This document shows positions 17,771 through 50,786 of a stretch of DNA of 64,000 nt, in pieces; within the stretch, counting starts at the first letter, position 1; the number at the start of each line of letters is the position of its first letter. The DNA is taken from NCBI GenBank assembly GCA_025464975.1, contig JAODMT010000024.1, positions 310,001 to 374,000 of the forward strand, read 5' to 3'. The notes under the pieces are model-generated. The model ran no database searches. It had not been told where the DNA came from and was given only the letters and a program-made list of their open reading frames with translations. The position numbers and the translations under genes are program-made. The DNA is from Microbacteriaceae bacterium. GTDB lineage: Bacteria; Actinomycetota; Actinomycetes; Actinomycetales; Microbacteriaceae.

Positions 17771-17848
17771 ACAACGCAGGAGATTCACCATTAGATGGCG
17801 TTCTTCCGCGCGAAATGGGCAACGAGGTGGTGAATGTCCTGCGTTTTG
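17771..17848. repeat. Palindromic dispersed element, copy 1
   Basis: Inverted arms of about 20 bp: left AACGCAGGAGATTCACCA (17773-17790), right GGTGGTGAATGTCCTGCG (17827-17844) plus TTTT, separated by about 36 bp. The same arms occur at 29274-29354 and 50485-50566. This copy sits immediately upstream of the cardiolipin synthase start, between two minus-strand genes. It is the most diverged of the three (left arm starts ACAACGC, not GAAAACGC). No gene or transposase is associated. Confidence 0.85.
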
Positions 17849-17935
17849 GGACGGCGAGCGGAGCCCGCCGCGGCGCACTGGAGTCGCTTGGCGCACGAGT
17901 CTCCTGCCGCGCGCGCGGTCGCACCCGGCGGCCGC

Positions 17936-18424
17936 TCAGCGGAAGTTCACGAACTGTAGATCGATGTCGAGGTCGGCACCCTTGAGCAGTGCCATTGTTG
18001 ACTGCAGGTCGTCGCGGCTCTTGGACGTGACCCGCAGCTCATCGCCCTGAATCTGTGACTTGACGCTCTTCGGTCCCTCGTCGCGGATGAGCTTCGATAC
18101 CTTCTTCGCGTCTTCGGAGGAGATGCCGTTCTTGAGCGACACTTCGATGCGGTATTCCTTGCCGGAGGCGTAGGGTTCGCCGGAATCGAGGCTGCGCAAC
18201 GAGATGCCCCGCTTGATGAACTTCGCTTCGAGGACCTCGAGCACCGCCTTCACGCGATCCTCCGAGGAGGCCTTTAGCAGTAGCTTCTCTCCGCTCCAGT
18301 CGACCTCGGCCCCGACGTTCTTGAAGTCGTAGCGCTGGGCGATCTCCTTCTGTGCCTGGTGAAGGGCGTTATCGGCCTCCATCTTGTCGACCTTGCTCAC
18401 AATGTCAAAAGTTGGGTCTGCCAT
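17936..18424 (-). CDS. YajQ-family (UPF0234) nucleotide-binding protein
   Basis: 162 residues covering the complete two-domain YajQ fold: FDIVSKVDKMEADNALHQA at the start, AQRYDFKNVGAEVDW, GKEYRIEVSLKNGISSEDAKK, and the ending DLDIDLQFVNFR. Members bind nucleotides or RNA and some Gram-negative members bind cyclic di-GMP; the role in Actinobacteria is not established. It is divergent from the transglycosylase with a 41 bp gap. Confidence 0.93.
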   Translation of the reverse strand: MADPTFDIVSKVDKMEADNALHQAQKEIAQRYDFKNVGAEVDWSGEKLLLKASSEDRVKAVLEVLEAKFIKRGISLRSLDSGEPYASGKEYRIEVSLKNGISSEDAKKVSKLIRDEGPKSVKSQIQGDELRVTSKSRDDLQSTMALLKGADLDIDLQFVNFR

Positions 18425-18465
18425 GCCAGCAGTTTAACGGTCGACTCACGAGATGATGGAAGGCA

Positions 18466-19212
18466 ATGAGATTTCTCCGAGTGTCGCTCATCGTCGCCGG
18501 CGGCGTTATAACCGCCGCCGTGGTTGTTGGTGCGATCATCGTCCTTTCGGAGCCGGATGGCGGGAACTCGAGGAGCCAGTCGCCGACCTTTGCCGGCGAG
18601 GCGCCCCTGGTGCGAGCCGCGCATCCGGTTGGCGCGGGGCTGGCCGGGCTCGCGGATGCTGCGTGGATTGCCGCCACCGCGAAATCGACCGGCATTCCGG
18701 CGCGTGCCCTCGAGGCGTACGCCGGTGCGGCCATCACCGTTGCAAACTCCGAAACCGGCTGCGGTATCGGCTGGAACACGCTCGCCGCTGTCGGAGAGGT
18801 CGAATCTCGACACGGCACAATCTTCGGCGGCGATATCGCGCCCGATGGCGATGCGACTCCGGCCATTTTCGGGGTGCCGCTTTCCGGCGGTGCCTTCGCC
18901 AACATCCCGGATTCGGACGGGGGGACCATCGACGGCGACGCGACCATCGACCGGGCGGTCGGTCCGATGCAGCTCATCCCCGCGACGTGGCGCAATTGGC
19001 ATGTCGACGGCAACGGCGACGGTGTGCAGAATCCGCAAAACATCGACGACGCCACACTCGCTGCGGCGCACTACCTGTGTCGCGCCGGGGGCCAGAAGAT
19101 GGGCACGGAGGCCGGCTGGCGGAAGGCCGTGTTGGCATACAACCACTCGAACCGGTATCTCTCCGACATCATCCACTACGCCACGCAGTATGAAAGCAAA
19201 TCGGGCCACTGA
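18466..19212 (+). CDS. Membrane-anchored lytic transglycosylase-like protein
   Basis: 248 residues. One N-terminal signal/anchor helix (LIVAGGVITAAVVVGAIIVL) is followed by a periplasm-side SLT-like domain: NTLAAVGEVESRHGTI contains the catalytic glutamate, then GPMQLIPATWRNWHVDGN and the AAHYLC and VLAYNHSNRYL segments typical of this fold. It would cut peptidoglycan glycan strands outside the membrane. The stretch DGNGDGVQNPQNIDDA looks like a calcium-type loop. It is transcribed toward tRNA-Tyr. Confidence 0.85.
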   Translation: MRFLRVSLIVAGGVITAAVVVGAIIVLSEPDGGNSRSQSPTFAGEAPLVRAAHPVGAGLAGLADAAWIAATAKSTGIPARALEAYAGAAITVANSETGCGIGWNTLAAVGEVESRHGTIFGGDIAPDGDATPAIFGVPLSGGAFANIPDSDGGTIDGDATIDRAVGPMQLIPATWRNWHVDGNGDGVQNPQNIDDATLAAAHYLCRAGGQKMGTEAGWRKAVLAYNHSNRYLSDIIHYATQYESKSGH

Positions 19213-19307
19213 GCGTTATTCGACGAACAGCCCGTTGGGGATTTTTCTCACCCACTTGACCCTGTATTCTTAAGTGGCGCGCTCGAAGAGTTCCTAGAGG
19301 CGTGCAT

Positions 19308-19389
19308 GGCAAGTTACCCAAGTGGCCAAAGGGATCTGACTGTAAATCAGCCGTCTTAGACTTCGTGAGTTCGAATCTCGCACTTGCCA
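19308..19389 (+). tRNA. tRNA-Tyr (anticodon GTA)
   Basis: Acceptor GGCAAGT (19308-19314) pairs with ACTTGCC (19382-19388), discriminator A. The anticodon loop CTGTAAA places GTA at 19342-19344. A long variable arm between 19347 and 19365 makes it class II, as expected for bacterial tRNA-Tyr. The T arm has GTTCGAATC. The 3' CCA is not directly encoded. A strong terminator follows at 19415. Confidence 0.95.
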
Positions 19390-19414
19390 CACCAGCGCCG
19401 TTCGCGGCTCGATA

Positions 19415-19447
19415 GGCCCGGTTCTCACAGACCGGGCCTTTTGTTTT
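19415..19447 (+). terminator. Rho-independent terminator after tRNA-Tyr
   Basis: Perfect 8 bp stem GGCCCGGT / ACCGGGCC with an 8 nt loop, followed by TTTTGTTTTG. It ends the tRNA-Tyr transcript 26 bp downstream of the tRNA. Confidence 0.85.
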
Positions 19448-19487
19448 GTTCCGCAACGGTCGACGACCACCAAGGAGTGCCTGCCTC

Positions 19488-20303
19488 ATGACGACTAGCT
19501 CACACGCCGGCTCCGAATTGCTCACAATCGCCCGAGGCATCGCGGTCGAGGCCGGTGAGCTCGCGAGGGCACGGCGGGCGCAGGGAGTGCAGGTCGCGGC
19601 GAGCAAATCGTCGATCGAGGACATCGTGACCTTCGCGGACCGGGAGACCGAGTCGCTGATCCGTTCCCGCATCGCCGACGCACGCCCGAACGACGGATTC
19701 GTCGGCGAGGAGAGCGGGGCGGCGACAGGAACCAGCGGACTGACCTGGATCGTGGACCCGATCGACGGAACCGTGAACTATTTGTATGGACTGCCGCACT
19801 ACGCGGTGAGCATCGCCGTCGTCGAAGGCGAACCAGAGCCGGCAAGCTGGCAGGCACTGGCCGGCGTGGTGGTGAATCCCGCGATCGGTGAAGTCTTCAC
19901 CGCGGCGGATGGAGCCGGCGCGTTCCTCGGCGATCGACAGATTCATCCGGCCAGCCCGGTCGACCTGTCTCAGGCTCTCGTAGGAACCGGATTCGGCTAC
20001 AACGCCGAGACCCGCACCGACCAGGCGCGCGTGCTTGCCGGCCTCGTGAGTCGAATCCGCGACGTGCGCCGGATGGGCACCGCCTCCCTCGACCTCTGCG
20101 CCGTGGCCTGCGGCCGACTCGACGGCTACTTCGAGCGCGGATTGAAGCCCTGGGATCACGCCGCCGGTGCTTTGATAGCGCGGGAGGCCGGCGCCACGGT
20201 CAGCCTCCAGGGTGGCGCACCCGACTCGCGCGACCTGGTATTCGCCGCGGCTCCGACGATCGCCGATCACCTGCAGCGGATGCTCCGCGAGCTTGGTGCC
20301 TGA
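19488..20303 (+). CDS. Inositol monophosphatase-family phosphatase
   Basis: 271 residues with the Mg-dependent sugar/inositol phosphatase signatures: GEESGAA (metal-binding Glu), WIVDPIDGTVNYLYGLPHYA (DPIDGT metal site), and the C-terminal GLKPWDHAAGALIAREAGA (WDxAAG). Substrates in this family range from inositol phosphates to histidinol phosphate, so only the class is sure. ATG at 19488 follows CAAGGAG with good spacing. A hairpin with CCCCC/GGGGG arms and a short T run follows the stop. Confidence 0.88.
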   Translation: MTTSSHAGSELLTIARGIAVEAGELARARRAQGVQVAASKSSIEDIVTFADRETESLIRSRIADARPNDGFVGEESGAATGTSGLTWIVDPIDGTVNYLYGLPHYAVSIAVVEGEPEPASWQALAGVVVNPAIGEVFTAADGAGAFLGDRQIHPASPVDLSQALVGTGFGYNAETRTDQARVLAGLVSRIRDVRRMGTASLDLCAVACGRLDGYFERGLKPWDHAAGALIAREAGATVSLQGGAPDSRDLVFAAAPTIADHLQRMLRELGA

Positions 20304-20307
20304 CGCC

Positions 20308-20328
20308 CGCCCCCTATCGGGGGCTTTG
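20308..20328 (+). terminator. Probable terminator after the inositol-phosphatase gene
   Basis: GCCCCC and GGGGGC arms around a TATC loop, then TTTGG. The T tract is short, so strength is uncertain. Confidence 0.55.
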
Positions 20329-20363
20329 GCGAATGCCGAAGGGTGCCCTATCCTTTATAGATT

Positions 20364-20389
20364 CGTTATCAAACGACGGCCTGTCGTTT
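20364..20389 (+). promoter_or_regulatory. CGTTATCAA word and hairpin upstream of the first M23 gene
   Basis: CGTTATCAA at 20364-20372 also occurs on the minus strand at 29227-29235, 39 bp before the NlpC/P60 start. It overlaps a 7 bp inverted repeat AAACGAC / GTCGTTT (20371-20377 and 20383-20389). It may be a regulator site or a 5' leader hairpin; nothing in the sequence decides. Confidence 0.4.
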
Positions 20390-20454
20390 TGTAAAACCAC
20401 ATTTGGTCGGTGCGTGCTTTCACGCCAGAACCATTGTCGGAGGAATTTCCCGCT

Positions 20455-20517
20455 GTGAACTGCACTACCCCATGCCCGCACGCCCTCGCACGAACGACCC
20501 CTGCCGGGGTCCGATAG
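20455..20517 (+). CDS. Putative 20-codon upstream ORF (leader peptide) of the first M23 gene
   Basis: GTG at 20455 is preceded by GGAGGA (20439-20444) at good spacing, better than any ribosome site for the main gene. The frame MNCTTPCPHALAR... ends TAG at 20515-20517, two bases before the GTG at 20520 that starts the M23 frame as MSEFNWD. A comparable short frame precedes the second M23 gene. It may couple or regulate translation. If the M23 protein instead starts at ATG 20472, the overlap makes this frame accidental. Confidence 0.4.
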   Translation: MNCTTPCPHALARTTPAGVR

Positions 20518-20519
20518 GC

Positions 20520-21419
20520 GTGTCGGAATTCAACTGGGACCTGAAAGCGACTGACACGGCGGCTGACGGATCGGCGCGCCCGTCGAATGACGCTTTTCCC
20601 ACCCGGCGCCAGCTGCGGGAACGGGCGAGCCAGGCCGCCAAGTCATCCGGCCCGGTACCGCGGGCGCTGCGCCACGCCACGCCAACTACCGTCGCCGTCG
20701 CGGCGAAGCGAGCAAAGCGTCCCCTTCTGCCCAAGATCGTCAGCATCAGCGCGATGCTCGGTGCCGGTGCGCTGCTCGTGGCAACATCCCTCCCGGCCGT
20801 CGCCCTGCACGCCTCGGCGGCGGATGCGTCGACCGCAGGCCTGCCCGCGCACTCGAAGGTGCAGGGGCAGTCACTCGCCGTCTCCGACAGCATCGCGGAG
20901 ACTGCCCCGGTGCGTGACGCGTATACCGTCGTCAACATCGCCGCGCAGGCGCGGATGAAGAACGCCAACCAGAGCTTCCTGTACACGAACGACATCAACG
21001 GCACCATTCAGTGGCCGTTCCCGGATCCCGTTCCGGTAAGCAGCGGCTTCGGCGCCCGGCACGTGGCCAACTGCAGCTTCTGCTCCACCTTCCACGAGGG
21101 TGTCGACTTCGTCCCACCGGCTGGCACCACGATCGACTCCATCGCAGCCGGAGTGGTTAGCCAGGCGGGAACCACCGGTCCGTTCGGTAATCACGTCATG
21201 ATCGACCACGTGATCAACGGTCAGAAGGTGCAGAGTCTGTACGCGCACATGATCTCCGGATCGATCAAGGTGGTCGTAGGGCAACAGGTTACGGTGGCCC
21301 AGCCGCTCGGTCTGCTCGGCAGCACCGGAAATGCGACGGGACCCCACCTGCACCTCGAGATCCACCTTGACGGAACGCCCGTCGATCCCTTCGCGTGGCT
21401 GAAGGCCAACGCCAACTGA
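20520..21419 (+). CDS. M23-family secreted metallopeptidase (first of a tandem pair)
   Basis: About 299 residues from GTG 20520 (ATG 20472 is the other candidate). After a basic cytoplasmic N-terminus there is one signal/anchor helix (SISAMLGAGALLVATSLPAVAL), a linker carrying VRDAYTVV, then the LytM domain: WPFPDPVPVSSGFGARH, FHEGVDFVPP (Zn His and Asp) and GPHLHLEIHLDG (HxH). All metal ligands are present, so it is probably an active peptidoglycan endopeptidase rather than a regulator. Followed after 210 bp by a paralogue ending in the same DPFAWLKANAN. Confidence 0.88.
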   Translation: MSEFNWDLKATDTAADGSARPSNDAFPTRRQLRERASQAAKSSGPVPRALRHATPTTVAVAAKRAKRPLLPKIVSISAMLGAGALLVATSLPAVALHASAADASTAGLPAHSKVQGQSLAVSDSIAETAPVRDAYTVVNIAAQARMKNANQSFLYTNDINGTIQWPFPDPVPVSSGFGARHVANCSFCSTFHEGVDFVPPAGTTIDSIAAGVVSQAGTTGPFGNHVMIDHVINGQKVQSLYAHMISGSIKVVVGQQVTVAQPLGLLGSTGNATGPHLHLEIHLDGTPVDPFAWLKANAN

Positions 21420-21572
21420 CGGCTAGCCGCGGTCGTCGGGTAGTAGTTTCACTCACGTTTGGCTAGGCTTTACGAAATCGTTACCTGCCCGGGTTCCGGT
21501 AGATCCGCAGAATGCCGAACTCACGTCCCGGTTCGGAAGTTGCTGAGTCGACAAAGCCGTGAGGAGCCCGAC

Positions 21573-21626
21573 ATGTCGAAGTCACCTGCCTCGGTCGAGC
21601 GTCCACGGCCATCGGGAGTCTGTTAA
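21573..21626 (+). CDS. Putative 17-codon upstream ORF of the second M23 gene
   Basis: ATG at 21573 follows GAGGAGC with a short spacing; the frame MSKSPASVERPRPSGVC ends TAA at 21624-21626, three bases before the GTG start of the M23 gene at 21630. Its ending PSGVC resembles PAGVR of the frame before the first M23 gene. It is too short to judge by coding statistics; the repeated arrangement is the evidence. Confidence 0.4.
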   Translation: MSKSPASVERPRPSGVC

Positions 21627-21629
21627 CCC

Positions 21630-22451
21630 GTGCGGTCCAACGACGAGTCATCGCCGCTGGTGCGACGCCGAGCGCGCTCCGGACACCGAGCGACGAGGAA
21701 GTCACTCTCCGCTGCTCCTTCGGCCAGCTCGCCCCGTCGCGGCGGGTCACGGCGGGTGCTGCGCAAACTGATGACGTTCGGCGCGATGACGGGCGCGGCC
21801 GCGCTTCTCGTCTCCACCTCGCTTCCGGCCAACGCATTCTTCGGCGCCGCGCCATCCGCCATCCGACAATCGACCGACAGCGTGTCGTTCCAACGACTGC
21901 AGGTGGAAGAAAGCGTCGCTGTCGAGAAGCCGACGCGGGACGCGTACACCGTCGTCTCTCTCGTTCAGAAGATCGCGGCCAAGTACGTCGCGGCCGCCCG
22001 GAGCACCAGATACACGAATAACCCCCTTGGCACCGTGCAATGGCCGTTCCCGGTTTCGGTGCCGATCACCAGTGGATTCGGCCCGCGTCACGTGGCGAAT
22101 TGCGGGTTCTGCTCAACCTTTCACCAGGGGCTCGACTTCAACCCCGGGTCCGGGGTGCCAATTCAGGCCATTGCCGACGGAGTGGTCAGCAAGGTGGAAT
22201 CCGATTCCGGCGGCCTCGGCAACAACGTCTGGATCGACCACGTGGTCAACGGCCAGAGGGTAACCAGCGTGTACGCGCACATGATGAACAACAGCGTGCG
22301 GGTGAAGACGGGGCAGTCAGTCAAGGTGACGGATGAGATCGGCAAGGTCGGCAGCACCGGCGCCTCCACCGGGGCGCACCTTCACCTCGAAATTCACCTC
22401 GACGGCACCCCGGTTGATCCCTTTGCGTGGCTGAAGGCCAACGCGAACTGA
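21630..22451 (+). CDS. M23-family secreted metallopeptidase (second of a tandem pair)
   Basis: 273 residues, the same plan as its upstream neighbour: basic N-terminus, one hydrophobic segment (MTGAAALLVSTSLPANAFF), linker with TRDAYTVV, then LytM domain with SGFGPRHVANCGFCSTFH, HQGLDFNPG and GAHLHLEIHLDGTPVDPF. The metal-binding residues are intact. The catalytic halves are nearly the same in both proteins while signal and linker parts differ, so this is an older tandem duplication. It converges on the GH13 gene with only 8 bp between stops. Confidence 0.88.
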   Translation: MRSNDESSPLVRRRARSGHRATRKSLSAAPSASSPRRGGSRRVLRKLMTFGAMTGAAALLVSTSLPANAFFGAAPSAIRQSTDSVSFQRLQVEESVAVEKPTRDAYTVVSLVQKIAAKYVAAARSTRYTNNPLGTVQWPFPVSVPITSGFGPRHVANCGFCSTFHQGLDFNPGSGVPIQAIADGVVSKVESDSGGLGNNVWIDHVVNGQRVTSVYAHMMNNSVRVKTGQSVKVTDEIGKVGSTGASTGAHLHLEIHLDGTPVDPFAWLKANAN

Positions 22452-22459
22452 TCGCCGCT

Positions 22460-24160
22460 CTAGCCGCGAAGCCAGACCGTCGTGTCGCCCGGAAGGGCAC
22501 CCACACCGAGCGGCTCCGAGGAGAGCATGACCTCACCAGCGGGAAGGGGAACGACGGCCTCACCGGTGTTGGCGATCACCGTCACGGCTCCGTTGCGGAA
22601 CGCCACGACGTCATCCGGGTAGCCGTCTAACCACTCGATCTCGCCCAGTCCTAGCCCATTCGCGGCACGAGCGGACAGGAGCGACCGGTAGAGCTCGAGC
22701 GTCGAGCCATCCAATCCCTCTTGCGAGTCGCGCGCGTACGGCCCCCAGTCGGTCGGCTGCGGCAGCCAGCTGCGCTGAACGTGGCTGAACCCGTAGTCCG
22801 GCTTGGCGGCCTCCCACGGAATCGGCACCCGGCAGCCATCGCGACCATAGCGAGTGCCATTGGTGCGAAACCAAGTGGGGTCTTGCCTCGCGTCGTCGGG
22901 CAGATCGACATCCTCCGGCAGGCCGAGTTCCTCGCCCTGGTAGATGTAGGCGCTTCCCGGAAGGGCAAGCATGAGGGCGGTTGCGGCGCGGGCGCGGCGG
23001 AGCCCGAGGGCGCGAACCGGCTTGCCGAGGGTCTTCGGGCCGATGCCGTGGCCTTGCGGGTTGTCTTCGGTGAGCGCCAGTCGAGAGGCGTGGCGAACCA
23101 CGTCGTGGTTGGAGAGCACCCAGCTGCTCGGCGCGCCCACGCTGGAAAAGGCGGTGAGCGAGTCGGCGATGACGGAGCGCAACGCTGGTCCGTTCCACGC
23201 GGTCTCGAGGTAGGAGAAGTTGAACGCCTGTTGCATTTCGTCGGGGCGAACCCAGTTGGCGAGCTTTGCCAGCGGCTCGACCCATGCCTCGGCGCACAGC
23301 ACCCGGTCGCCGCCGTACTCCTCGAGCACCCGGTGCCAGTCGCGGTAGATCTCGTGCACTCCCTCTTGGGCCCAGTAGGGCGGGGTGGGCGGATCGACCT
23401 CGGCGTGACCTTCGATCTCCGGCTCCAGCCCCAGCGTGCCGCCCATGCTTCCGGCGTCGGCCGGTGGGGTGTAGTCCGGGAGCCCCTCGGCCTTGATGAG
23501 ACCGTGCGCGACATCCACCCGGAACCCGTCGACGCCGCGATCGAGCCAGAACCGCAGGATGTCGCGGAACTGCTCCCGCACCCAGGAGTTCTGCCAGTTG
23601 AGGTCGGGCTGGGACGTGTCGAAGAGGTGCAGATACCACTGGCCCGGGGTGCCGTCCGGGCGCGTGACACGGGTCCAGGCAGCGCCGCCGAACACCGACT
23701 GCCAATTGTTGGGTGGCAGGTCGCCATGCGGACCGGAGCCGTCGCGGAACATGTATCGATCCCGCTCGGCGCTTCCCTCCGGCGCTGCGAGGGCGGCCCC
23801 AAACCAGGCGTGCTGGTCGGACGTGTGGTTGGGGACCAGGTCGACGATGAGCTTGAGGCCGAGTTCGTGAACCTTGCGCTGCATCGCCTCGAAGTCGGCA
23901 AGCGTTCCGAAGATGGGATCGACGTCACAATAGTCGGCGACGTCGTAGCCGGCGTCCTTCTGCGGGGATGTATAGAAGGGCGACAGCCACACCGCGTCGA
24001 CACCGAGGTCGACGAGAGCGGGAAGCCGTTCGGTTATCCCGACGAGGTCTCCGAGGCCATCCTGCCCCATCCCGTCAGAGAACGACCGGGGGTAAATCTG
24101 GTAGATGACGGCCGATCGCCACCATTCGGTGCCACGCTGGTCTGAAGAGCTCTGTGCCAT
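22460..24160 (-). CDS. GH13 alpha-glucosidase (oligo-1,6-glucosidase type)
   Basis: 566-residue alpha-amylase-superfamily enzyme. Conserved regions: DAVWLSPFYTSPQKDAGYDV, DLVPNHTSDQH (region I), GFRVDVAHGLIK (region II with nucleophile Asp), CAEAWVEP (acid/base Glu) and LSNHDVVRH (region IV with stabilising Asp). Length and the N-terminal WWRSAVIYQIYPRSF fit intracellular alpha-1,4/1,6-glucosidases that degrade maltose, isomaltose or trehalose-type sugars. No signal peptide. The exact linkage cannot be assigned. Long opposite-strand frames here are shadows. Confidence 0.92.
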   Translation of the reverse strand: MAQSSSDQRGTEWWRSAVIYQIYPRSFSDGMGQDGLGDLVGITERLPALVDLGVDAVWLSPFYTSPQKDAGYDVADYCDVDPIFGTLADFEAMQRKVHELGLKLIVDLVPNHTSDQHAWFGAALAAPEGSAERDRYMFRDGSGPHGDLPPNNWQSVFGGAAWTRVTRPDGTPGQWYLHLFDTSQPDLNWQNSWVREQFRDILRFWLDRGVDGFRVDVAHGLIKAEGLPDYTPPADAGSMGGTLGLEPEIEGHAEVDPPTPPYWAQEGVHEIYRDWHRVLEEYGGDRVLCAEAWVEPLAKLANWVRPDEMQQAFNFSYLETAWNGPALRSVIADSLTAFSSVGAPSSWVLSNHDVVRHASRLALTEDNPQGHGIGPKTLGKPVRALGLRRARAATALMLALPGSAYIYQGEELGLPEDVDLPDDARQDPTWFRTNGTRYGRDGCRVPIPWEAAKPDYGFSHVQRSWLPQPTDWGPYARDSQEGLDGSTLELYRSLLSARAANGLGLGEIEWLDGYPDDVVAFRNGAVTVIANTGEAVVPLPAGEVMLSSEPLGVGALPGDTTVWLRG

Positions 24161-24292
24161 CCGAAAACCCTAGGGCATGCATATAGGCGTCAAATGCACA
24201 TGGTGGCAGGTTGGCCGCGCTGGACACCTCCCGGCGGGTGCTATTCTCTAACGGTGCCAAAACGGCCGTGGGGTGACTCGCGCGCTGCTTTC

Positions 24293-24364
<72 letters not shown>

Positions 24365-24392
24365 CTCGTCCCCGGATCTCCGGTGACGTCCC

Positions 24393-24466
24393 GGCGGGGT
24401 AGCTCAGGTGGTTAGAGCACACGGCTCATAATCGTGGTGTCGCGGGTTCGAGTCCCGCCCTCGCTA
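24393..24466 (+). tRNA. tRNA-Met (anticodon CAT)
   Basis: Acceptor GGCGGGG (24393-24399) pairs with CCTCGCT (24459-24465) using two G-T pairs, discriminator A. D arm GCTCAGGTGGTTAGAGC, anticodon loop CTCATAA with CAT at 24427-24429, T arm GCGGG/CCCGC around TTCGAGT. A paired first acceptor position indicates elongator rather than initiator Met. Lies 28 bp after tRNA-Thr, so probably co-transcribed. Confidence 0.93.
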
Positions 24467-24762
24467 CAAATGAATACCCTTTGACCAGGCATTTCCTTGG
24501 CCAGAGAGCTTCCTCTTTTTGCTAGCTGCCACCCACCTTCGCTCTAGACTCCGGTTTAAGTCTGGATTTTGTGCAACGCCCTGTTGTGCTCGCTTGCGTC
24601 CCGGCAGGCCGTGGCTCTCCCGTCGCGGCAGCGCGTCGGCTCCGTGCCGTATAGCGGACGGAACTCCGTTCAAGCCGTGCCACGGCATGGCCTGACTGGG
24701 TCTTGCGGCGGCTGCCCTCGAACAGCTCGACGTCACAGCGCATCACCCACCGGGTGTTGCGG
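24467..24762. other. Gene-free stretch after tRNA-Met
   Basis: About 296 bp between tRNA-Met and the DUF1345 gene. Frames of 74 and 90 codons on the minus strand have no recognisable content and no ribosome site. Base use is less regular than in the flanking genes. It could be degraded integrated DNA next to a tRNA, but no integrase remnant or duplicated tRNA 3' end is visible here. Confidence 0.5.
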
Positions 24763-25392: not shown

Positions 25393-25446
25393 CGAAGAAG
25401 TTGTCCTCCAGCCTTGATTGACCGCGAAGTTGTCCGCCGGCCCGCC

Positions 25447-29188: not shown

Positions 29189-29273
29189 CCGGACAGGTTA
29201 GCCCAGACCGCCTGATAAATCTCAAATTGATAACGCGCCTGTGGAATACGAATCGGATATCGCCCCGCGATAC

Positions 29274-29354
29274 CGAAAACGCAGGAGATTCACCACCTCA
29301 CGGTGGCATCTCGTCTGTCGACGGCGCGGTGGTGGTGAATTTCCTGCGTTTTCG
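29274..29354. repeat. Palindromic dispersed element, copy 2 (best preserved)
   Basis: 24 bp arms with one mismatch. The left arm begins CGAAAACGCAGGAGATTC (29274) and ends CACC (29297); the right arm begins GGTGGTGAATTTCC (29331) and ends GTTTTCG (29354). The spacer is 33 bp. It sits in the divergent gap between the NlpC/P60 gene and the tiny peptide gene. Copies at 17771-17848 and 50485-50566. Confidence 0.88.
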
Positions 29355-29503
29355 GGCGACCACCGGGGCGATGTCGGCGGCCGGGACATTCCGCGGGGGG
29401 TGGTTCAGGTGCGCCGCAGCGCCGGCTGGCGGCCGGAAATGTCGGGGGTGCGGGATATGGTGAAAAAGAAAGTCCGCGACACGCCCGAAACACTAGATGT
29501 AGT

Positions 29504-29849: not shown

Positions 29850-30296
29850 ATGACAGTAAACCCCGGTCTTGTGGGGCGCTCCTTCCCCCCAACGGCCCCG
29901 TATCTCGTTGGTCGCGAGAAGATCCGCGAGTTTTCTCGCGCCGTCTTCTCGACTAGCCCGCTGAGCGAGGATGTCGCCGCCGCTCGAGCCGCCGGCTACA
30001 GCGACCTGGTTGCGCCGCCGACCTTCGCCGTCGTGGTTCAGGAGCTCACCCTGCACCAGTTGCTGTCCGAGCCGGACGCCGGGATCGATTTCTCCCGAGT
30101 CGTGCATGGCGACCAACGCTTCAGCTTCTCCCGCCCGATCGTCGCGGGCGACGAACTCACGGCGACGCTCGCGGTGTCGAGCATCAAGTCGCTCGGGGGG
30201 CACTCCATGGTGACCGCCGAATCCGTCATCCTTGCCGCGGACGGCTCGCATGTCGTCACAGCGGTGTCAACGCTCGTGGTCAGGGGAGACGAATGA
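29850..30296 (+). CDS. hadA: MaoC-type (3R)-hydroxyacyl dehydratase, HadA-like subunit
   Basis: 148 residues, FAS1-type dehydratase half of the hot-dog fold: VNPGLVGRSFPPTAPYLVGREKI family start, LVAPPTFAVV, and FSRVVHGDQRFSFSRPIVAGDEL. HadA lacks the catalytic His-Asp pair and pairs with HadB to dehydrate hydroxyacyl-ACP (type II fatty acid elongation in mycobacteria; role in non-mycolate relatives is less clear). Its stop overlaps the hadB ATG by four bases. Position before murB and the tRNA-Trp-secE-nusG region matches other Actinobacteria. Confidence 0.85.
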   Translation: MTVNPGLVGRSFPPTAPYLVGREKIREFSRAVFSTSPLSEDVAAARAAGYSDLVAPPTFAVVVQELTLHQLLSEPDAGIDFSRVVHGDQRFSFSRPIVAGDELTATLAVSSIKSLGGHSMVTAESVILAADGSHVVTAVSTLVVRGDE

Positions 30297-40406: not shown

Positions 40407-40433
40407 CCCTGAAGTAGCTGGCGCTCGGCGGTG

Positions 40434-43496: not shown

Positions 43497-43543
43497 CCCG
43501 CTGGGTGACAAACTTGTCAGGAACCCAATCGTTAGGAAAATTT

Positions 43544-44389: not shown

Positions 44390-44412
44390 CAGCGGCGTCA
44401 GCCAGAATCACT

Positions 44413-44453
44413 GGGGGCCGGCTGCGACTCCTCTCGAGTTGCAGCCGGCCCCC
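44413..44453 (+). terminator. Long hairpin after the epimerase gene
   Basis: 18 bp arms (44413-44430 and 44436-44453) with one mismatch and a 5 nt loop, GGGGGCCGGCTGC against GCAGCCGGCCCCC. There is no T run. It ends transcription before the ribosomal leader or blocks read-through. A TTGCAG/TAGTCT promoter (44439-44468, 18 bp spacing) overlaps its right arm. Confidence 0.6.
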
Positions 44454-44499
44454 GGTGTGACGTAGTCTATGCGAAGCCAAAGACCGCCGGTTATCGGTG

Positions 44500-44690
44500 T
44501 GCCGTCGCTCATCACTGAGAGACAGTCCCGATCCAAGGTTCGCTCAAGCGAAGACCTGCGCAGGTGTATTGAGAGACTTTTCGGTCCTGCTCCGTGCGCT
44601 TGCGCCGGAGCATTTTTTGTTGGGTGACCCGCCTTCGCAACGCGAAGCGCGTGCGGTCCGTAGCCACGAAATTGCGCAACACCAATGAAA
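44500..44690 (+). ncRNA. Ribosomal protein L10 leader (rplJL attenuation region)
   Basis: A gene-free, structured 5' leader before rplJ. It carries the AAGACCTGCGCAGGTGTATTG region expected of the L10(L12)4 binding site, then a terminator-like hairpin TGCTCCG / CGGAGCA (44588-44612) followed by TTTTTT, 90 bp upstream of rplJ. This is the arrangement of the L10 leader family, where L10 binding controls transcript continuation. The exact boundaries are estimates; the remaining 44390-44499 holds the preceding hairpin and a likely promoter. Confidence 0.7.
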
Positions 44691-44704
44691 TCACTAGGAG
44701 CCCC

Positions 44705-45220
44705 ATGGCGAACAAGGAAGCTTCGGTTGCCGAGCTCACGGACAAGTTCCGCGACTCCAACGCCGTTCTGCTCACCGAGTACCGCGGGCTCACTGTCGCT
44801 CAGCTGAAGACGCTGCGCAAAAACCTCAGTGAGAACGCCACGTACGCCGTGGTGAAGAACACGCTGACCAAGATTGCGGCGAACGCTGCGGGGATCACGT
44901 CTTTCGACGACGACCTCGTCGGCCCGTCCGCCATCGCATTTGTGCATGGTGACCCGGTCACCGTCGCAAAGGGTCTTCGCGACTTCGCCAAGGCAAACCC
45001 GCTGCTGATCGTCAAGGGCGGTTACTTCGACGGTAACCCCCTTACCCCGGCAGAGGTCAACAAGCTCGCAGATCTCGAAACCCGAGAGGTGCTGCTCGGC
45101 AAGCTTGCCGGCGCCTTCAAGGCTTCGCTGTTCGGCGCGGCATACCTGTTCAACGCACCGCTGTCGAAGGCGGTCCGTACCGTCGATGCGCTGCGCGAGA
45201 AGCAGGATTCCGCCTCCTAA
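44705..45220 (+). CDS. rplJ: Ribosomal protein L10
   Basis: 171 residues. [20 protein letters not shown] and [17 protein letters not shown] are L10 signatures; the C-terminal helix (LREKQDSAS end) anchors L12 dimers. ATG at 44705 follows CACTAGGAGCCCC. Behind a structured leader, and co-transcribed with rplL. Confidence 0.96.
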
Positions 45221-45279
45221 TCCCGTACGGGACTAGACAGCGCGGCTGATATACAACTCAAGAAACAAGGAGAAATACC

Positions 45280-45663
45280 ATGGCAAAGCTTTCCAGCGAC
45301 GACCTGATCGCCGCATTCAAGGACCTCACCCTCATTGAGCTCAGCGAGTTCGTGAAGAAGTTCGAAGAGGTCTTCGAGGTCACCGCAGCCGCCCCCGTCG
45401 CCGTTGCGGCTGCCGGCGGACCCGCCGTTCCGGCTGAAGAGGTCGAGGAGAAGGATTCCTTCGACGTCGTTCTCGAGTCGGTCGGCGACAAGAAGATCCA
45501 GGTCATCAAGGAGGTCCGCGCGCTCACGAGCCTCGGACTCGGCGAGGCGAAGGCCGTCGTCGATGGCGCACCGGGCGTTGTGCTCGAGGGTGTCAACAAG
45601 GAGACCGCCGAGAAGGCCAAGGCTCAGCTCGAAGAGGCCGGCGCCACGATCACCCTCAAGTAG
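45280..45663 (+). CDS. rplL: Ribosomal protein L7/L12
   Basis: 127 residues. N-terminal dimerisation part with [20 protein letters not shown], an Ala/Val/Pro hinge ([19 protein letters not shown]), and the factor-binding domain ending [20 protein letters not shown] and [10 protein letters not shown]. Present in multiple copies on the stalk through L10. CAAGGAGAAATACC precedes the ATG. Confidence 0.97.
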
Positions 45664-45712
45664 TACGCGACCCTCACGGTCCCTACTTGTGGCGTAATCA
45701 CCACGCGATGTT

Positions 45713-45742
45713 GGGCGCCGATCCCCCCGGGGATCGGCGCCC
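45713..45742 (+). terminator. Terminator of rplJ-rplL
   Basis: Perfect 14 bp arms GGGCGCCGATCCCC / GGGGATCGGCGCCC with almost no loop, then TTCGTCGTT. About 50 bp after rplL. Confidence 0.75.
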
Positions 45743-45843
45743 TTCGTCGTTAACGCCGTCGCCGGGAGCAGAGGGCAGCGTCCCGGTTGCGCCCAGCGCG
45801 AATTGCGAGCGGACCACCGGCCGACGGTGCGTAAGGTGAACGG

Positions 45844-47778
45844 GTGAGTGGAATGAGAGGCGGCGGCGGCGGCATGGGCGCCGCAATGCGCGGTGGCGGC
45901 GGCGGCATGGGCGCCGCAATGCGCGGTGGCATGCGCGGCGGGGGCGGGATGCGCGGACGAGTGAGCGGCGGCGATCCCGAGGCCCAGCGGGCGGCCAATG
46001 CCGAGGCGCCGAAGATCCCCAACCTATTTCGGCGCATTGTCGTCCTCTTCGAACCGCATCGCACCGCGCTCACCGTCACGGTCGTGCTCGTCATCATCGG
46101 CGCCGGCCTCACCGTGCTGCCGCCTCTGCTCACCAAGAGCGCCTTTGACATCGGGCTGTTTCCCAAGTCCGGCCAGCCCAACTTCCCGGTGCTGCTCCAG
46201 ATAGTGCTCCTGATGGTCGCGATCTACGTGGCCTCGGCCGCGCTCGGCGTATGGCAGACCTACCTCACGGCGACGGTGGGTAACAAGGTCATGGGTGCGC
46301 TGCGGGTACGGCTGTTCGGCCACCTGCAGCGGATGGAAATGGCTTTCTTCACGCGCACGAAGACCGGAATCATCCAGTCCCGATTGCAGAACGACGTCGG
46401 CGGCGTCGCCAACGTGCTCACGAACACGGTCTCAAGCGTGCTCGGCAACACGGTGACCGTGGCCGCCGCCTTCGTCTCCATGCTCGTGCTGTCCTGGCAG
46501 CTCACCATCGTGGCCGTGATCCTCATGCCGATTCTCGTGATCGCGCAGCGCCGGGTCGGCCGGGTGCGGGCAAAGATCGCAACCAAGACCCAGGAGTCGC
46601 TGAGCGACATGACGGCGATAACGCAAGAGACCCTCTCTGTCTCCGGCATCCTGCTCGCCAAGAGTTTCAATCAGCAGGATGCCGAGATCGGCCGCTACAG
46701 CGACGAGAACGACAATCAGATTCGTCTTCAGGTTCGAGAGCAGATGAGCGGCCAGTGGTTCTTCGCCATGGTGCAGATCTTCCTCGCCATCGTCCCCGCG
46801 GTTATCTACCTCTGCGCGGCCTGGTTGTTCTTTCACAACGTCGACATCACCGCGGGGACGATCGTCGCGTTCACCACGGTGCAGGCTCGCCTGATGTTTC
46901 CGCTGCTCGGGATCATGCGCGTCGCACTCGATCTGCAGACCTCTCAGGCCTTGTTTGCGCGGATCTTCGAGTACCTCGATCTGCGGCCGGCCATCGTCGA
47001 TGCGCCAGGTGCGCACCCGGTCGTGGAGTCGAGGCTCGGCCTCGTGGAATTCGACAGCGTGGTCTTCTCGTACCCGGATGCCGGTCCCGCGATGCCGCCG
47101 ACCCTCAAGGGGCTGTCCTTCCGCATCGAGCCCGGCCAGTTCGCCGCGTTCGTCGGACCGTCCGGGGCAGGGAAGACCACCGTGTCCTACCTGGTCCCGC
47201 GCTTTCACGACGCGACGAGCGGTCGCGTGCTCTTCGCCGGCGATGACGTGCGTTCGCTGGAGCAGGACTCACTCGTCGCCAACATCGGCATCGTGAGCCA
47301 GGAGACCTACCTGTTCCACGCGACGATCGCCGAAAACCTCCGGTATGCCAAACCGGGAGCGACGGATGCCGAACTCGAGTCGGCCGCCCGCGCCGCGAAC
47401 ATCCACAACACGATTGACACCTTCCCCGATCGCTACGACACGATCGTGGGGGAACGTGGGTACCGGCTGAGCGGCGGCGAGAAGCAGCGGATCGCGATTG
47501 CCAGGGTGCTCCTGAAGGATCCGAGAGTTCTGATCCTCGACGAGGCAACGAGCGCCCTCGATTCCATCTCCGAGCGTGTCGTGCAGGAGGCCCTCGATGC
47601 GGCCTCCCGCGGGAGGACGACCATCGCGATCGCACACCGCCTGTCGACGATCGTTTCGGCGGACGTCATCTTCGTGGTCGATGGTGGTCGCATCGTGGAG
47701 CAGGGCACCCATGACGAGTTGACCGCCGCCGATGGCGTGTACGCGCGGTTGTATTCGGAGCAAGTCACTCAGCACTGA
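45844..47778 (+). CDS. ABC transporter, fused permease-ATPase (exporter type)
   Basis: 644-residue half-transporter: six membrane helices (residues 60-350) then an ATPase domain with Walker A GPSGAGKTTVSYL, Q-loop SQETYLFHATI, signature LSGGEKQRIAIARVLLK and Walker B RVLILDEATSALD. It would act as a dimer exporting lipids, peptides or drugs. The first 37 residues are a repeat of Met-Arg-Gly blocks (MRGGGGGMGAA twice, then MRGG and MRGGGGMRGR), encoded by 33 bp tandem repeats from 45853. Start GTG 45844. Confidence 0.92.
   Translation: MSGMRGGGGGMGAAMRGGGGGMGAAMRGGMRGGGGMRGRVSGGDPEAQRAANAEAPKIPNLFRRIVVLFEPHRTALTVTVVLVIIGAGLTVLPPLLTKSAFDIGLFPKSGQPNFPVLLQIVLLMVAIYVASAALGVWQTYLTATVGNKVMGALRVRLFGHLQRMEMAFFTRTKTGIIQSRLQNDVGGVANVLTNTVSSVLGNTVTVAAAFVSMLVLSWQLTIVAVILMPILVIAQRRVGRVRAKIATKTQESLSDMTAITQETLSVSGILLAKSFNQQDAEIGRYSDENDNQIRLQVREQMSGQWFFAMVQIFLAIVPAVIYLCAAWLFFHNVDITAGTIVAFTTVQARLMFPLLGIMRVALDLQTSQALFARIFEYLDLRPAIVDAPGAHPVVESRLGLVEFDSVVFSYPDAGPAMPPTLKGLSFRIEPGQFAAFVGPSGAGKTTVSYLVPRFHDATSGRVLFAGDDVRSLEQDSLVANIGIVSQETYLFHATIAENLRYAKPGATDAELESAARAANIHNTIDTFPDRYDTIVGERGYRLSGGEKQRIAIARVLLKDPRVLILDEATSALDSISERVVQEALDAASRGRTTIAIAHRLSTIVSADVIFVVDGGRIVEQGTHDELTAADGVYARLYSEQVTQH
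45853..45961 (+). repeat. Tandem repeat encoding a Gly/Met-rich N-terminus
   Basis: Two 33 bp units, ATGAGAGGCGGCGGCGGCGG... and ATGCGCGGTGGCGGCGGCGG..., both ending CATGGGCGCCGCA, then two shorter partial units. In-frame copy changes would vary the length of the cytoplasmic N-terminus of the ABC exporter. Confidence 0.8.
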
Positions 47779-47866
47779 TCGCCCGTCACGCTTGTGCCGC
47801 CCTCGACACCGTCGCCTTGTCACAGAGAGCCGACACCCCGGGGCCCGCTGGTAGATTGGCCGGACT

Positions 47867-49231
47867 ATGAAGTTCGCCAATAGCGTCATCGACCTCGTCG
47901 GCAATACCCCCCTCGTGAAGCTCAATCGGGTGACGGACGGCATCGCCGCGACCGTGCTCGTCAAGGTGGAGTATCTCAACCCGGGAGGCTCGTCGAAAGA
48001 CCGAATCGCCACGCGGATCATCGACGCCGCGGAGGCCGAGGGGCTGCTGGGACCCGGCGGAACCATCGTCGAGCCGACCTCCGGCAACACGGGAATCGGC
48101 CTCGCGCTCGTCGCGCAGCAGCGCGGCTACCGCTGCGTCTTCGTGCTTCCCGACAAGGTCGGCGAGGAGAAGCGCAACGTGCTGCTCGCCTACGGGGCAG
48201 AGATCGTCGTCACACCGACCGCCGTCGCACCTGACAGCCCGGAGTCGTACTACTCGGTGTCGGATCGGCTCACGCGGGAGATTCCCGGGGCATTCAAGCC
48301 GAACCAATACTCCAACCCCAACGGACCGCTCAGCCACTACGAAACCACCGGTCCGGAAATCTGGCGGGACACCGATGGTCAGGTCACGCACTTTGTCGCC
48401 GGGGTCGGCACCGGCGGCACCATCAGCGGGGTCGGCCGGTACCTCAAGGAGGTGTCGCAGTCGGCGGTACAGATCATCGGCGCCGATCCGGAGGGCTCCG
48501 TCTATTCCGGCGGGACGGGGCGTCCCTACCTTGTCGAGGGAGTTGGGGAAGACTTCTGGCCCGAGGCCTACGACGCGAGCGTCGTCGACGAGATCATTGC
48601 GTGCTCCGACGCCGAGTCGTTCGAGATGACGCGCCGACTCGCCCGCGAGGAGGGACTGCTCGTCGGCGGCTCAAGCGGTCTCGCTGTCGCGTCGGCGCTC
48701 AAGGCAGCGAAGGACCTCCCCGCGGATGCCGTCGTGGTGGTGCTTCTGCCGGACGGCGGCCGGGGTTACCTCGGAAAAGTGTTCAGCGAGAAGTGGATGC
48801 AGTCCTACGGCTTCACACAGGTCTCGTCCGAGAAGACAGTGGCCGACGTTGTCGGACACAAGACGGGAAGCCTGCCTGCGCTCGTGCACGTTCACCCGAC
48901 GGACACGGTGCGCGACGCCATCCAGATCATGGCCAAATACGGGGTGTCGCAGCTCCCTGTGCTGTCGGCCGAGCCGCCCGTCGTGATCGGCGAAGTGGTC
49001 GGCGCGGTGGAGGAGCGCTCCCTCCTCGAGGAAGTGTTCAGCGGCGCGGCGAGCATGACCGACGCGATCGGGAAATTTATCGGGGCGCCTCTCGGTTTGA
49101 TCGGGGTACACGAGCCGGTGAGCGCGGCCCGGTCCGCCTTCGTCGACTCCGATGCCCTCCTTGTCACCGAGGATGGGAAACCGGTCGGCGTGGTCACTCG
49201 CCATGACCTGCTCACGTTCCTGTCCGACTGA
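47867..49231 (+). CDS. Cystathionine beta-synthase
   Basis: 454 residues. The PLP domain has NPGGSSKDRIATRI with the Schiff-base Lys, PTSGNTGIGLALVAQQRGY, and GTGGTISGVGRYLKE for phosphate binding; the C-terminal 130 residues are a CBS-domain pair (TVRDAIQIMAKYGVSQLPV and GKPVGVVTRHDLL). This combination marks cystathionine beta-synthase rather than plain cysteine synthase: homocysteine plus serine gives cystathionine. The gamma-lyase gene follows after 38 bp. Confidence 0.92.
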   Translation: MKFANSVIDLVGNTPLVKLNRVTDGIAATVLVKVEYLNPGGSSKDRIATRIIDAAEAEGLLGPGGTIVEPTSGNTGIGLALVAQQRGYRCVFVLPDKVGEEKRNVLLAYGAEIVVTPTAVAPDSPESYYSVSDRLTREIPGAFKPNQYSNPNGPLSHYETTGPEIWRDTDGQVTHFVAGVGTGGTISGVGRYLKEVSQSAVQIIGADPEGSVYSGGTGRPYLVEGVGEDFWPEAYDASVVDEIIACSDAESFEMTRRLAREEGLLVGGSSGLAVASALKAAKDLPADAVVVVLLPDGGRGYLGKVFSEKWMQSYGFTQVSSEKTVADVVGHKTGSLPALVHVHPTDTVRDAIQIMAKYGVSQLPVLSAEPPVVIGEVVGAVEERSLLEEVFSGAASMTDAIGKFIGAPLGLIGVHEPVSAARSAFVDSDALLVTEDGKPVGVVTRHDLLTFLSD

Positions 49232-49269
49232 CCGACCCTGCCGTCCACTCCTGAGAAGAATCGACTCAA

Positions 49270-50430
49270 TTGCCTTCCTCCCACGATTTCTCCACCCGCG
49301 CCATCCATTCCGGGCAGAGCTTCGACCCCACCACTGGCGCGGTCATCCCGCCGATCTACCAGACCTCGACCTTCGTGCAAGATGGCATCGGCGGCTTCCG
49401 GGGCGGCTACGAGTACGCGCGAGGCGGCAACCCCACCCGTACGTCGCTCGAGACGCTTCTCGCCGACCTGGAGGGGGCCAAGCACGGCTTCAGCTTCGGT
49501 TCCGGCCTGGCCGGTGAGGATACGCTGCTCCGCGCGGTGCTCGCCCCTGGCGACCACGTGATCATGGGCAACGATGTCTACGGCGGGACGCATCGTCTCG
49601 TCAATCGGGTCTTCGTTCCGTGGGGGATCGGGCTCGACACCGTGGAGATGACCGACCTCGACGCCGTCCGCGCCTCGATCAGGCCGAACACCAAGGTGCT
49701 GTGGCTGGAGACGCCGAGCAACCCGCTCATGAAAATCAGCGACATCGCCGCCCTCGTGGAGATCGGGCACGCCGCCGGCGTGCTCGTCGTTGTCGACAAC
49801 ACCTTCGCCTCGCCCTACCTGCAGAACCCGCTCGCGGACGGCGCCGACGTCGTCACCCACTCGGCGACCAAGTACCTCGGCGGTCACTCCGACGTGCTCG
49901 GTGGCGCGGTCGTGTTGAACGACGACGAGCTCGCGGAGAAGATCGGCTTCCTGCAGTTCGCCGTCGGGCCGGTCTCCGGACCGATGGATGCGTGGCTCAC
50001 CACGCGGGGGATCAAGACCCTCGCGGTGCGAATGGAACGCCACTCGTCGAACGCGCAAGCGATCGCCGAGGCGCTTGTCGCGCATCCGGCGGTCGAGCGC
50101 GTCTACTACCCCGGACTGTCGACGCATCCCGGCCACGAGATCGCCGCGCGGCAGATGCGGGCGTTCGGCGGGATGATCTCCGTCGGACTGACCGGGGGAG
50201 CGGCCGCAGCGCGCGCCTTCGCCGAGTCGACGGAACTGTTCCAACTCGCCGAGTCCCTCGGCGGCGTGGAGTCGCTTATCAGCTACCCGTCGGAGATGAC
50301 GCATGCGTCGGTGCGGGGAACCGCGCTGGAGGTTCCGGCCAATGTCACGCGCCTCTCCGTCGGTATCGAGGGAGTGGATGACCTCCTCTCCGACCTGCTC
50401 TCGACGCTCGATCGGGTCAACGCCCTCTAA
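49270..50430 (+). CDS. Cystathionine gamma-lyase/gamma-synthase (Cys/Met PLP family)
   Basis: 386 residues, with YARGGNPTRTSLETLLADLE, GNDVYGGTHRL, VVDNTFASPYLQNPL and the PLP lysine in HSATKYLGGHSD. Sequence alone separates gamma-lyase from gamma-synthase poorly; pairing with cystathionine beta-synthase favours the lyase and reverse transsulfuration from homocysteine to cysteine. Start TTG at 49270 (MPSSHDFSTRAIH); no ATG or GTG fits. Probably co-transcribed with the upstream gene. Confidence 0.9.
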   Translation: MPSSHDFSTRAIHSGQSFDPTTGAVIPPIYQTSTFVQDGIGGFRGGYEYARGGNPTRTSLETLLADLEGAKHGFSFGSGLAGEDTLLRAVLAPGDHVIMGNDVYGGTHRLVNRVFVPWGIGLDTVEMTDLDAVRASIRPNTKVLWLETPSNPLMKISDIAALVEIGHAAGVLVVVDNTFASPYLQNPLADGADVVTHSATKYLGGHSDVLGGAVVLNDDELAEKIGFLQFAVGPVSGPMDAWLTTRGIKTLAVRMERHSSNAQAIAEALVAHPAVERVYYPGLSTHPGHEIAARQMRAFGGMISVGLTGGAAAARAFAESTELFQLAESLGGVESLISYPSEMTHASVRGTALEVPANVTRLSVGIEGVDDLLSDLLSTLDRVNAL

Positions 50431-50786
50431 CTCCGTATCCCGCTCGTCGTCGCCTCCCGTCCCGTGGTGGGTGCCTCCGCGTGACCGAAAACGCAGGACA
50501 TTCACCGTGGGAGGGCGTGTTTCGCCGGTTTTCCTTTCGGTGGTGGTGTTTCTCCTGCGTTTTCGGTGCGCGGCGGGGCGCGGCTGACCCGCCCCGGATG
50601 TCGACGTGGCAGGTGCCTGGTATTCCATTTTGAGAATATGTCGGTCGGGCAGCACGAGAGGTCTTCCCCTGCGCCCGCGCTGGCGCAATGTCGGCCGATA
50701 GGGCATCAGCCAGTTGGTGCGCGATAATGGGATCCCGTACACGAAATCGACCGTGCGGCCCGCAACGAATCCGGATACCACCATCC
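50431..50786. other. 356 bp intergenic region before the LacI regulator
   Basis: Contains palindromic element copy 3 (50485-50566), a short inverted repeat TATTC/GAATA at 50621-50638, and a direct repeat ATGTCGGTCGGG (50639) / ATGTCGGCCGATAGGG (50689). The LacI promoter should lie in the second half. No gene seen. Confidence 0.6.
50485..50566. repeat. Palindromic dispersed element, copy 3
   Basis: Left arm CCGAAAACGCAGGACATTC begins at 50485 and ends ACCG (50508); right arm GGTGGTGTTTCTCCTGCG runs from 50542 and ends TTTTCGG (50566). The spacer is about 34 bp. It lies between the gamma-lyase stop and the LacI gene, both on the plus strand. Confidence 0.86.

Follow-up and report, generated by a model that had tools for sequence, protein, structure and literature searches.

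Among described repeat systems, the closest to the one reported here are REPINs (repetitive extragenic palindromic, or REP, doublets forming hairpins), whose partner gene, encoding a REP-associated tyrosine transposase (RAYT), is single copy and vertically inherited (PMC8049555) and is flanked by repeats (PMC3733652). Rickettsia palindromic elements and intragenic REPs lie in frame within genes, often those of DNA synthesis or repair, and add 20-30 residues (PMC3733652), while the EDxHD homing endonuclease I-Bth0305I is reported to dimerise on a target of nearly 60 bp (PMC3943268), as far as the accessible portions of these papers describe them. Here we describe a family of short paired inverted elements in a Microbacteriaceae bacterium (assembly GCA_025464975.1), three copies of which lie in the window, the 64-kb stretch that was analysed (contig JAODMT010000024.1, positions 310,001 to 374,000). 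We consider it somewhat more probable than the alternatives combined that the family is a REPIN-like population of paired inverted sites, whose partner is a winged-helix DUF559/Vsr-like nuclease with its own gene bracketed by elements. An earlier note on the window had reported the three palindromes and suggested that they were REP-like or mobile, or else a structured RNA or a protein-binding site; the observation was confirmed and its interpretation is partly supported.

The window palindromes are three of about 47 two-armed copies in the 3.22 Mb genome (G000; 3,223,636 bases in 24 contigs), as the earlier note had anticipated in expecting many copies genome-wide. An arm pattern allowing up to two mismatches gave 56 + 62 matches in the whole genome, far more than chance would give, against 7 + 2 for a reversed control. 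The fetched loci hold 46 complete two-arm copies, with an arm-to-arm offset of 54 in 40 and 53 in six; a 47th (L033) has a small deletion in one arm, and two partial copies (L036, C17:112826; L058, C2:286624) have a lost or shortened second half. Each element of this family, F1, consists of the core CGRAAANNCAGGA and an inverted copy of it, and the consensus reads CYSAAAACGCAGGASATTCACCAC, then a variable spacer of about 35 bp, then the inverted arm. As classified with our own gene caller, 27 of the 46 copies are in tandem gaps, 15 in convergent gaps, three in divergent gaps and one inside a gene; for comparison, these loci have 97 tandem, 16 convergent and 33 divergent gaps of at least 80 bp, counting those with elements. 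The distribution along the genome may be uneven: copies average about one per 65-70 kb, and contigs such as C1, C5 and C18 have no arm with zero or one mismatch among the matches listed. At L038, L043, L064, L327 and L340, neighbouring copies about 100-150 bp apart look like local duplications, with near-identical flanks at L043.

Spacing and arm sequence are the conserved properties of the elements. The collected stretches contain 208 distinct arm pairs with no more than two mismatches, of which 168 span 80-84 bp, 24 span 93-95 bp and none spans 85-92 bp; the remaining 16 lie outside both classes and include chance pairings and pairings across neighbouring copies. The two classes differ by about 11 bp, close to one helical turn. 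In 12 orthologous element pairs between G000 and its relative G010, identity is 98.8% in the arms, 86.5% in the spacer, 77-79% in near flanks and 95.0% in long flanks. Six pairs between G000 and G004, which represent fewer loci as neighbouring copies share partners, have 88.1% identity in the arms, 56.7% in the spacer and 52-54% in near flanks, unrelated G000 spacers having a baseline of 54.3%. Spacer length differs by zero or one in every orthologous pair of both comparisons. Inversion of the spacer by recombination between the arms was considered and rejected; orthologous spacers keep their orientation to the flanks wherever they can still be aligned.

The arms do not behave as the two sides of an RNA stem. 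Variable arm positions pair no more often than in shuffled arms (884/966 against a mean of 886.5 in G000; 351/378 against 351.8 in G006), so that no compensatory changes between arms were detected in either genome, and the 21-bp arms are fully complementary in just four of the 46 G000 copies. Single arms fold no better than shuffles, with z values of 0.15 and 0.02 for the two arms of window copy 2, -1.03 for an arm of the second type described below (F2) and -0.45 for an arm from genus g80. Since the arms are conserved while the spacer drifts, and compensatory pairing is absent, the pattern favours paired protein sites on double-stranded DNA over an RNA hairpin. The elements also have polarity, as seen in the anti-symmetry of their outer triplets in G000 (P 0.013). 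It could be scored in 38 of the 46 copies, and among 22 scored copies in tandem gaps 12 point along transcription and 10 against it, which makes polarity unrelated to transcription. Of the natures proposed in the earlier note, the protein-binding site fits best and a structured RNA is not favoured.

At a locus conserved in G000, G004, G006 and G002, two F1 elements bracket a single gene. A profile of these four proteins, run against the open reading frames (ORFs) of the fetched loci, identified further members in G008, G009, G011, G107 and G145, and a second profile search of 20 element-bearing stretches gave five matches, in G260, G001, G201, G107 and G145. Two of the resulting 12 gene loci had been chosen for having a pair of elements about 1 kb from each other. 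An element with no more than four mismatches in 22 scored bases (at most three were seen) is present upstream of all 12 genes, 89-147 bp from the starts used, a distance that depends on start choice (206 bp in G000 with its relatives' start; 71 bp in G260 with the automatic prediction). Eleven of the 12 also have an element at the 3' end, which overlaps the ORF in 10 and lies 40 bp beyond it in G260. When the genes of these stretches are predicted automatically, elements within 220 bp bracket 6/8 nuclease genes and 6/1067 others (Fisher p 1.2e-11), an undercount, given that the gene caller missed or shortened F1 nuclease genes. The gene occurs in four genera (g1, g59, g80 and g94). The profile found no match in the window, in 400 kb of G004 sampled at regular steps, or in additional pieces, five of them large and fifteen short. 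That the paired copies at L064 enclose an RNA gene was considered and rejected; Rfam was negative there and a protein gene was found instead. Viral or plasmid carriage was likewise rejected, as two exact element patterns and the nuclease alignment had no match in viral contigs, and one nuclease had no relative in plasmids or phages.

We read the protein as an AbiEi-like winged helix joined to a DUF559/Vsr-like nuclease of EDxHD type, and the gene probably encodes a DNA-cutting protein. In the 12-member alignment E222, D249 and H265 are invariant, and E259, D261 and D280 are present in at least 90% of members; in our reading this pattern of E, D, ExD, H and D resembles EDxHD. Identity of the F2 proteins to the F1 reference is 28-31%. 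Pfam profiles matched DUF559 in 5/12 proteins (best 2.4e-10), MTES_1575 REase in 3/12 and AbiEi_4 in 2/12, PADLOC matched AbiEi in up to six proteins per model and a homing endonuclease in one, and NCBIfam gave no match among them. A profile search of the PDB returned 3hrl (endonuclease-like; E 5.2e-5) and, weakly, 3r3p, a mobile intron protein that we take to be I-Bth0305I (E 0.78). Three other chains (E 0.19-0.32), among them CopN and a low-calcium-response protein, look unrelated. A structure model from a single sequence had a mean predicted local distance difference test (pLDDT) score of 35.8, too low to be used for the fold.

Arm type and protein type go together. Arms of the form AAAACGCAGGA accompany the F1 protein in five genomes and GGAAA(T/C)TCAGGA accompanies the F2 protein in five genomes of g1 and g59, while the arm type is CGAAAATGCAGGA in g80 and SGGAAACGCAGGA in g94. 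The arms beside the gene agree with those of other elements in the same genome, which are few in G145. In three genera (G011, G009 and G001; G145 and G201; G107) an F2-like gene is flanked by glyS and an FrnE-like gene, a shared position that points to vertical descent of the F2-like nuclease gene. At the glyS-frnE locus G000 has other genes and no nuclease, which fits the finding of no F2 arms in this genome.

In a survey of 60 genomes, comprising G000, 12 others of its genus and 47 more distant ones, 11 had an F1 arm match, with several matches in one genome only within the genus. The counts were 31+29 in G010, 15+15 in G006, 7+7 in G004, 3+3 in G003 and 2+1 in G007, and one each in G001, G008, G022, G031 and G056, so that F1 arm counts span 0 to 96 within one genus. 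In genomes of named species, the exact two-arm pattern was found in 21 stretches, all from the metagenome-assembled genomes (MAGs) Microbacteriaceae MAG BP_157 and Frigoribacterium MAG GL140_3. Many copies are orthologously placed, with flank identities of 93-97% between G000 and G010 and about 69-80% between G000 and G004, G006 or G007. Where G000 has ACC, the arm variant GCC is found in G006 (left 18/18, right 17/18) and in both arms of G004 (9/9). Arm matches number 60 in G010, a genome 64% complete, and 96 in G000, so the two may have nearly all of their copies in common. F1 relatives with different inner arms occur in G008 (45+47), G001 (17+16) and G002 (10+7), and some of the G008 copies (L213, L227, L236, L240) contain an extra inner inverted repeat in the spacer, GAGCAAAA with TTTTGCTC.

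The F2 arm type CGGAAATTCAGGACTTTGGTC was found in G002 (13+13), G009 (11+13), G001 (6+9) and G008 (7+7), a variant in G011 (9+5), and weak matches (1-3 each) in G003, G006 and G007; an arm search with up to three mismatches found none in G000, G004, G005, G010 or G012. All F2 arms found at this threshold in G011 (C1:588-675 kb) and G009 (C25:1-60 kb and C121) lie in one syntenic core region (L241-L250) of about 60-90 kb, the neighbourhood of their nuclease gene. We take the genes of this region to include lepA, hrcA, dnaJ, era, recO, glyS and dnaG. Clustering near the nuclease gene perhaps reflects elements spreading locally from it, or else a function tied to the region.

The wider element group is found at the level of the family Microbacteriaceae and is patchy. 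A shared core, CAGGA-N49-66-TCCTGNNTTTYCG, has a match in 56/398 Microbacteriaceae genomes (43/349 good ones) and in 23/85 genera, against one match in each of eight genomes for a reversed control; single matches may be chance, and symmetric elements are counted on both strands. At least three matches occur in 36 genomes of 16 genera. Order-wide, 13/396 genomes match, namely G000 and 12 that match once each, at no constant length, and the reversed control gave six single matches.

Several elements lie inside genes. One G000 copy is in frame within mutM, a gene found in 13/13 genomes of the genus. The same MutM linker contains an F1 element in seven (G000, G010, G004, G006, G007, G008 and G001), an F2 element in G002, arm remnants in G003 and G012, and nothing in G005 and G011. 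The right-arm codons CCT GCG TTT are identical in the seven F1 genomes, which suits selection on the DNA. In G009 the linker (L175) has a different palindrome, whose 22-bp arms are built around GGTCTCGACAAGCTCGACC, which indicates that it takes up more than one repeat family. In smc, an element is present at one aligned linker in G006, G002 and G008 (g1) and in G389 (g80), always of the arm type of its own genus; at the same linker the G176 (g101) coding sequence (L300) has four left arms in tandem and then one right arm. G389 also has an element within an S4/FtsJ gene, and in G010 one lies in open frame, either preceding a polyphosphate kinase gene or at its 5' end. The convergent gap L057 of G000 has no arms in an unselected piece of G004 (L267), which is likely an empty site. 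The earlier note had set conserved positions against empty sites as signs of local regulation or of mobility, and both were found: positions are kept in several relatives, while two of the 13 genomes have an empty mutM site and two others retain remnants there. An empty gap of the window, supposed to correspond to L131 of G006, was rejected because protein comparison did not support the match.

The reading that we favour starts from a repeat family, fixed spacing, arm conservation at fixed loci, a bracketed gene and matched arm and protein types, and from these we infer binding, dimerisation, cleavage, copying, movement and host benefit. Each element would be an inverted pair of binding sites, with CGRAAANNCAGGA as the core, lying on the same helix face and separated by a spacer of fixed length. 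A nuclease dimer, a pair of dimers or a higher oligomer would bind both arms and bridge or loop the spacer, whose length would be held by helical phase. The upstream copy would allow the nuclease to tune its own gene, and rare cutting would lead repair to copy or lose an element elsewhere. The outcome would be a REPIN-like population that is mostly inherited vertically. Past mobility of the elements is likely, although no movement event was caught.

A number of observations weigh against this reading. Neither binding nor cutting nor movement was observed, and the empty-site comparison defined no target duplication, the junctions of mutM (G005, G011) and of L057-L267 not being alignable. Many of the genomes compared are incomplete, and most loci were selected because they contain elements. 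G000 and G010 seem to share copies, which would make copying rare or over. All 12 gene loci come from stretches fetched for holding elements, the gene is present in just 5/20 element-bearing stretches of other genera and G001, and in G107 there is no element within 400 bp of its 3' end. The ExD motif is altered in G011 (D to N) and G145 (E to D), and most Pfam matches fall short of the cut-off, with the G260 protein alone passing for DUF559. One gene-side element of G145, with three mismatches, spans 92 bp and falls outside both span classes, and in G006 the outer-triplet polarity does not reach significance (18 copies, P 0.11).

Because present-day movement was not seen, the strongest rival is that the elements are sites of a regulon or of chromosome architecture, with the nuclease-like protein acting as a DNA-binding regulator or bridging protein and immobile operators or anchors kept by selection. 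It would account for the fixed spacing, for arms conserved at orthologous positions around a free spacer, for the element upstream of each of the 12 nuclease genes and for the confinement of the F2 arms found in G009 and G011 to one region, but divergent gaps, where promoters meet, hold just 3/46 copies, and it sits poorly with a polarity independent of transcription direction, with in-frame copies within mutM and smc, and with the range of F1 arm counts in one genus; we regard it as unlikely, yet as a real contender. The idea that the elements mark the terminus was rejected. We presume an origin in G004 from a dnaA-like motif near base 534 of its contig, and the listed F1 arms at 0.64-3.04 Mb of 3.33 Mb show no cluster opposite it; GC skew, taken in twenty 20-kb samples, had too much noise to locate the terminus.

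A classical REPIN or terminal-inverted-repeat population, moved by an undetected transposase and only secondarily linked to the nuclease, seems improbable to us. Size, paired ends, a length-constrained spacer and copies at 3' ends and in DNA-maintenance genes match the REPs and REPINs described in the accessible parts of two papers (PMC3116915, PMC3733652). The RAYT-type transposase that the earlier note proposed to look for was not found: Y1_Tnp (PF01797) has no match in any of 13 genomes of the genus or 18 copy-rich genomes (three in both sets, 28 in total), other transposase families not having been searched, while 5/14 control genomes were positive. Single arms fold no better than shuffles in 4/4 cases, compensatory changes are lacking and the bracketing of the nuclease gene is too strong for coincidence. 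Less credible still is a transcribed long hairpin acting at 3' ends in stability or attenuation; gaps are mostly tandem or convergent and the arms largely complementary, but arm pairing equals that of shuffled arms, few copies have fully complementary arms, polarity ignores transcription and Rfam has no match at the copies. Passive, decaying remnants of miniature inverted-repeat transposons come last and are barely plausible: the terminal inverted arms and the mutM remnants of G003 and G012 would suit them, but decay of the spacer is not matched in the arms, and the length stays fixed.

Set beside REPIN/RAYT systems, the family shares two inverted conserved ends, a length-constrained spacer and dozens of copies (PMC3116915), together with 3'-end placement and copies inside DNA repair and maintenance genes (PMC3733652), again as far as these papers are accessible, and it has a partner gene flanked by repeats. 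Unlike in those systems, the partner appears to be a winged-helix DUF559/Vsr-like nuclease and not a Y1 transposase, single arms form no hairpin of their own, pairing is not compensatory and there are two spacings about 11 bp apart. As neither a Y1 transposase, nor REP-type ends, nor compensatory pairing was found, the family is not a REPIN/RAYT member; the REP-like label of the earlier note holds for placement and for the existence of a partner gene, and fails for the kind of enzyme. The in-frame copies, here in mutM and smc, liken the elements by description only to Rickettsia palindromic elements and intragenic REPs, for which the accessible part of PMC3733652 describes neither a nuclease partner nor fixed two-arm spacing. 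With EDxHD homing endonucleases the protein seems to share its E, D, ExD, H and D pattern, and the I-Bth0305I target of nearly 60 bp (PMC3943268, seen through its accessible portion) is a fair parallel to the 54-bp arm-to-arm offset. It differs in lying in neither intron nor intein, in its predicted N-terminal AbiEi-like winged helix and in having many genomic site pairs in place of one homing site.

A bolder proposal, to which we give rather less than an even chance, is that these elements represent a new class of repeat system, in which helically phased site pairs would be spread and maintained by a dedicated winged-helix DUF559 nuclease. Such a system would be convergent with REPIN/RAYT, would work by double-strand recognition and cutting with host repair and not by Y1 single-strand transposition, and would have been kept across a bacterial family, with arms rewritten in concert with nuclease divergence and with use as in-frame peptide loops in MutM and SMC. 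A copy-rich family with a clear non-Y1 partner gene suggests a role for the poorly known AbiEi-DUF559 protein type, and dozens of dispersed sites that change sequence together with their presumed binding protein offer a natural experiment. In titles and the openings of abstracts, among which subscription papers were little covered, no description of this family or of a link between DUF559 and repeats was found.

In a listing of the window's 13 inverted repeats the three copies take the first three places, and their offsets of 54, 54 and 53 bp with differing spacers bear out the earlier description of preserved arms around variable centres. Copy 1 (17768-17850) has a left arm on the plus strand (17768-17790) and a right arm on the minus strand (17828-17850), separated by 37 nt and 91% complementary. 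It lies in a tandem gap between a PLD-like gene (16279 to about 17745-17772, minus strand) and a DUF520 gene (17936-18424, minus), which we take to be yajQ, and its ortholog in G010 (L108) has the same place, with 91% interior identity. Copy 2 (29273-29355) has arms at 29273-29297 (plus; CCGAAAACGCAGGAGATTCACCACC) and 29331-29355 (minus), 33 nt apart and 96% complementary, in a divergent gap between an NlpC/P60 gene (28538-29188, minus) and a FAS1-like dehydratase gene (29850-30296, plus). Copy 3 (50484-50567), with arms at 50484-50506 (plus) and 50545-50567 (minus), 38 nt apart and 87% complementary, occupies a tandem gap between a gene for a pyridoxal phosphate (PLP) enzyme of Cys/Met metabolism (49270-50430, plus) and a lacI-type gene (50688-51800, plus). 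No strand is assigned to the copies as wholes; all arms were located by the inverted-repeat listing and the arm-pattern search, and the contexts differ much as had been claimed. In the window alone, a looser arm pattern with three mismatches is barely above chance (35 matches against a mean of 25.4).

A search at the copies for intrinsic terminators (a short-loop stem followed by a T run) found none at copies 1 and 2 and, at copy 3, one terminator-like stem within the spacer (50522-50543; 0.5 expected). The arms of the three window copies form no terminator, which agrees with the earlier view that these are not ordinary terminators, and Rfam gave no match at element copies. Elsewhere in the window, two short-loop inverted repeats, at 44409-44457 (22-bp arms, 5 nt between) and 45706-45749 (21-bp arms, 2 nt between), could be ordinary terminators.

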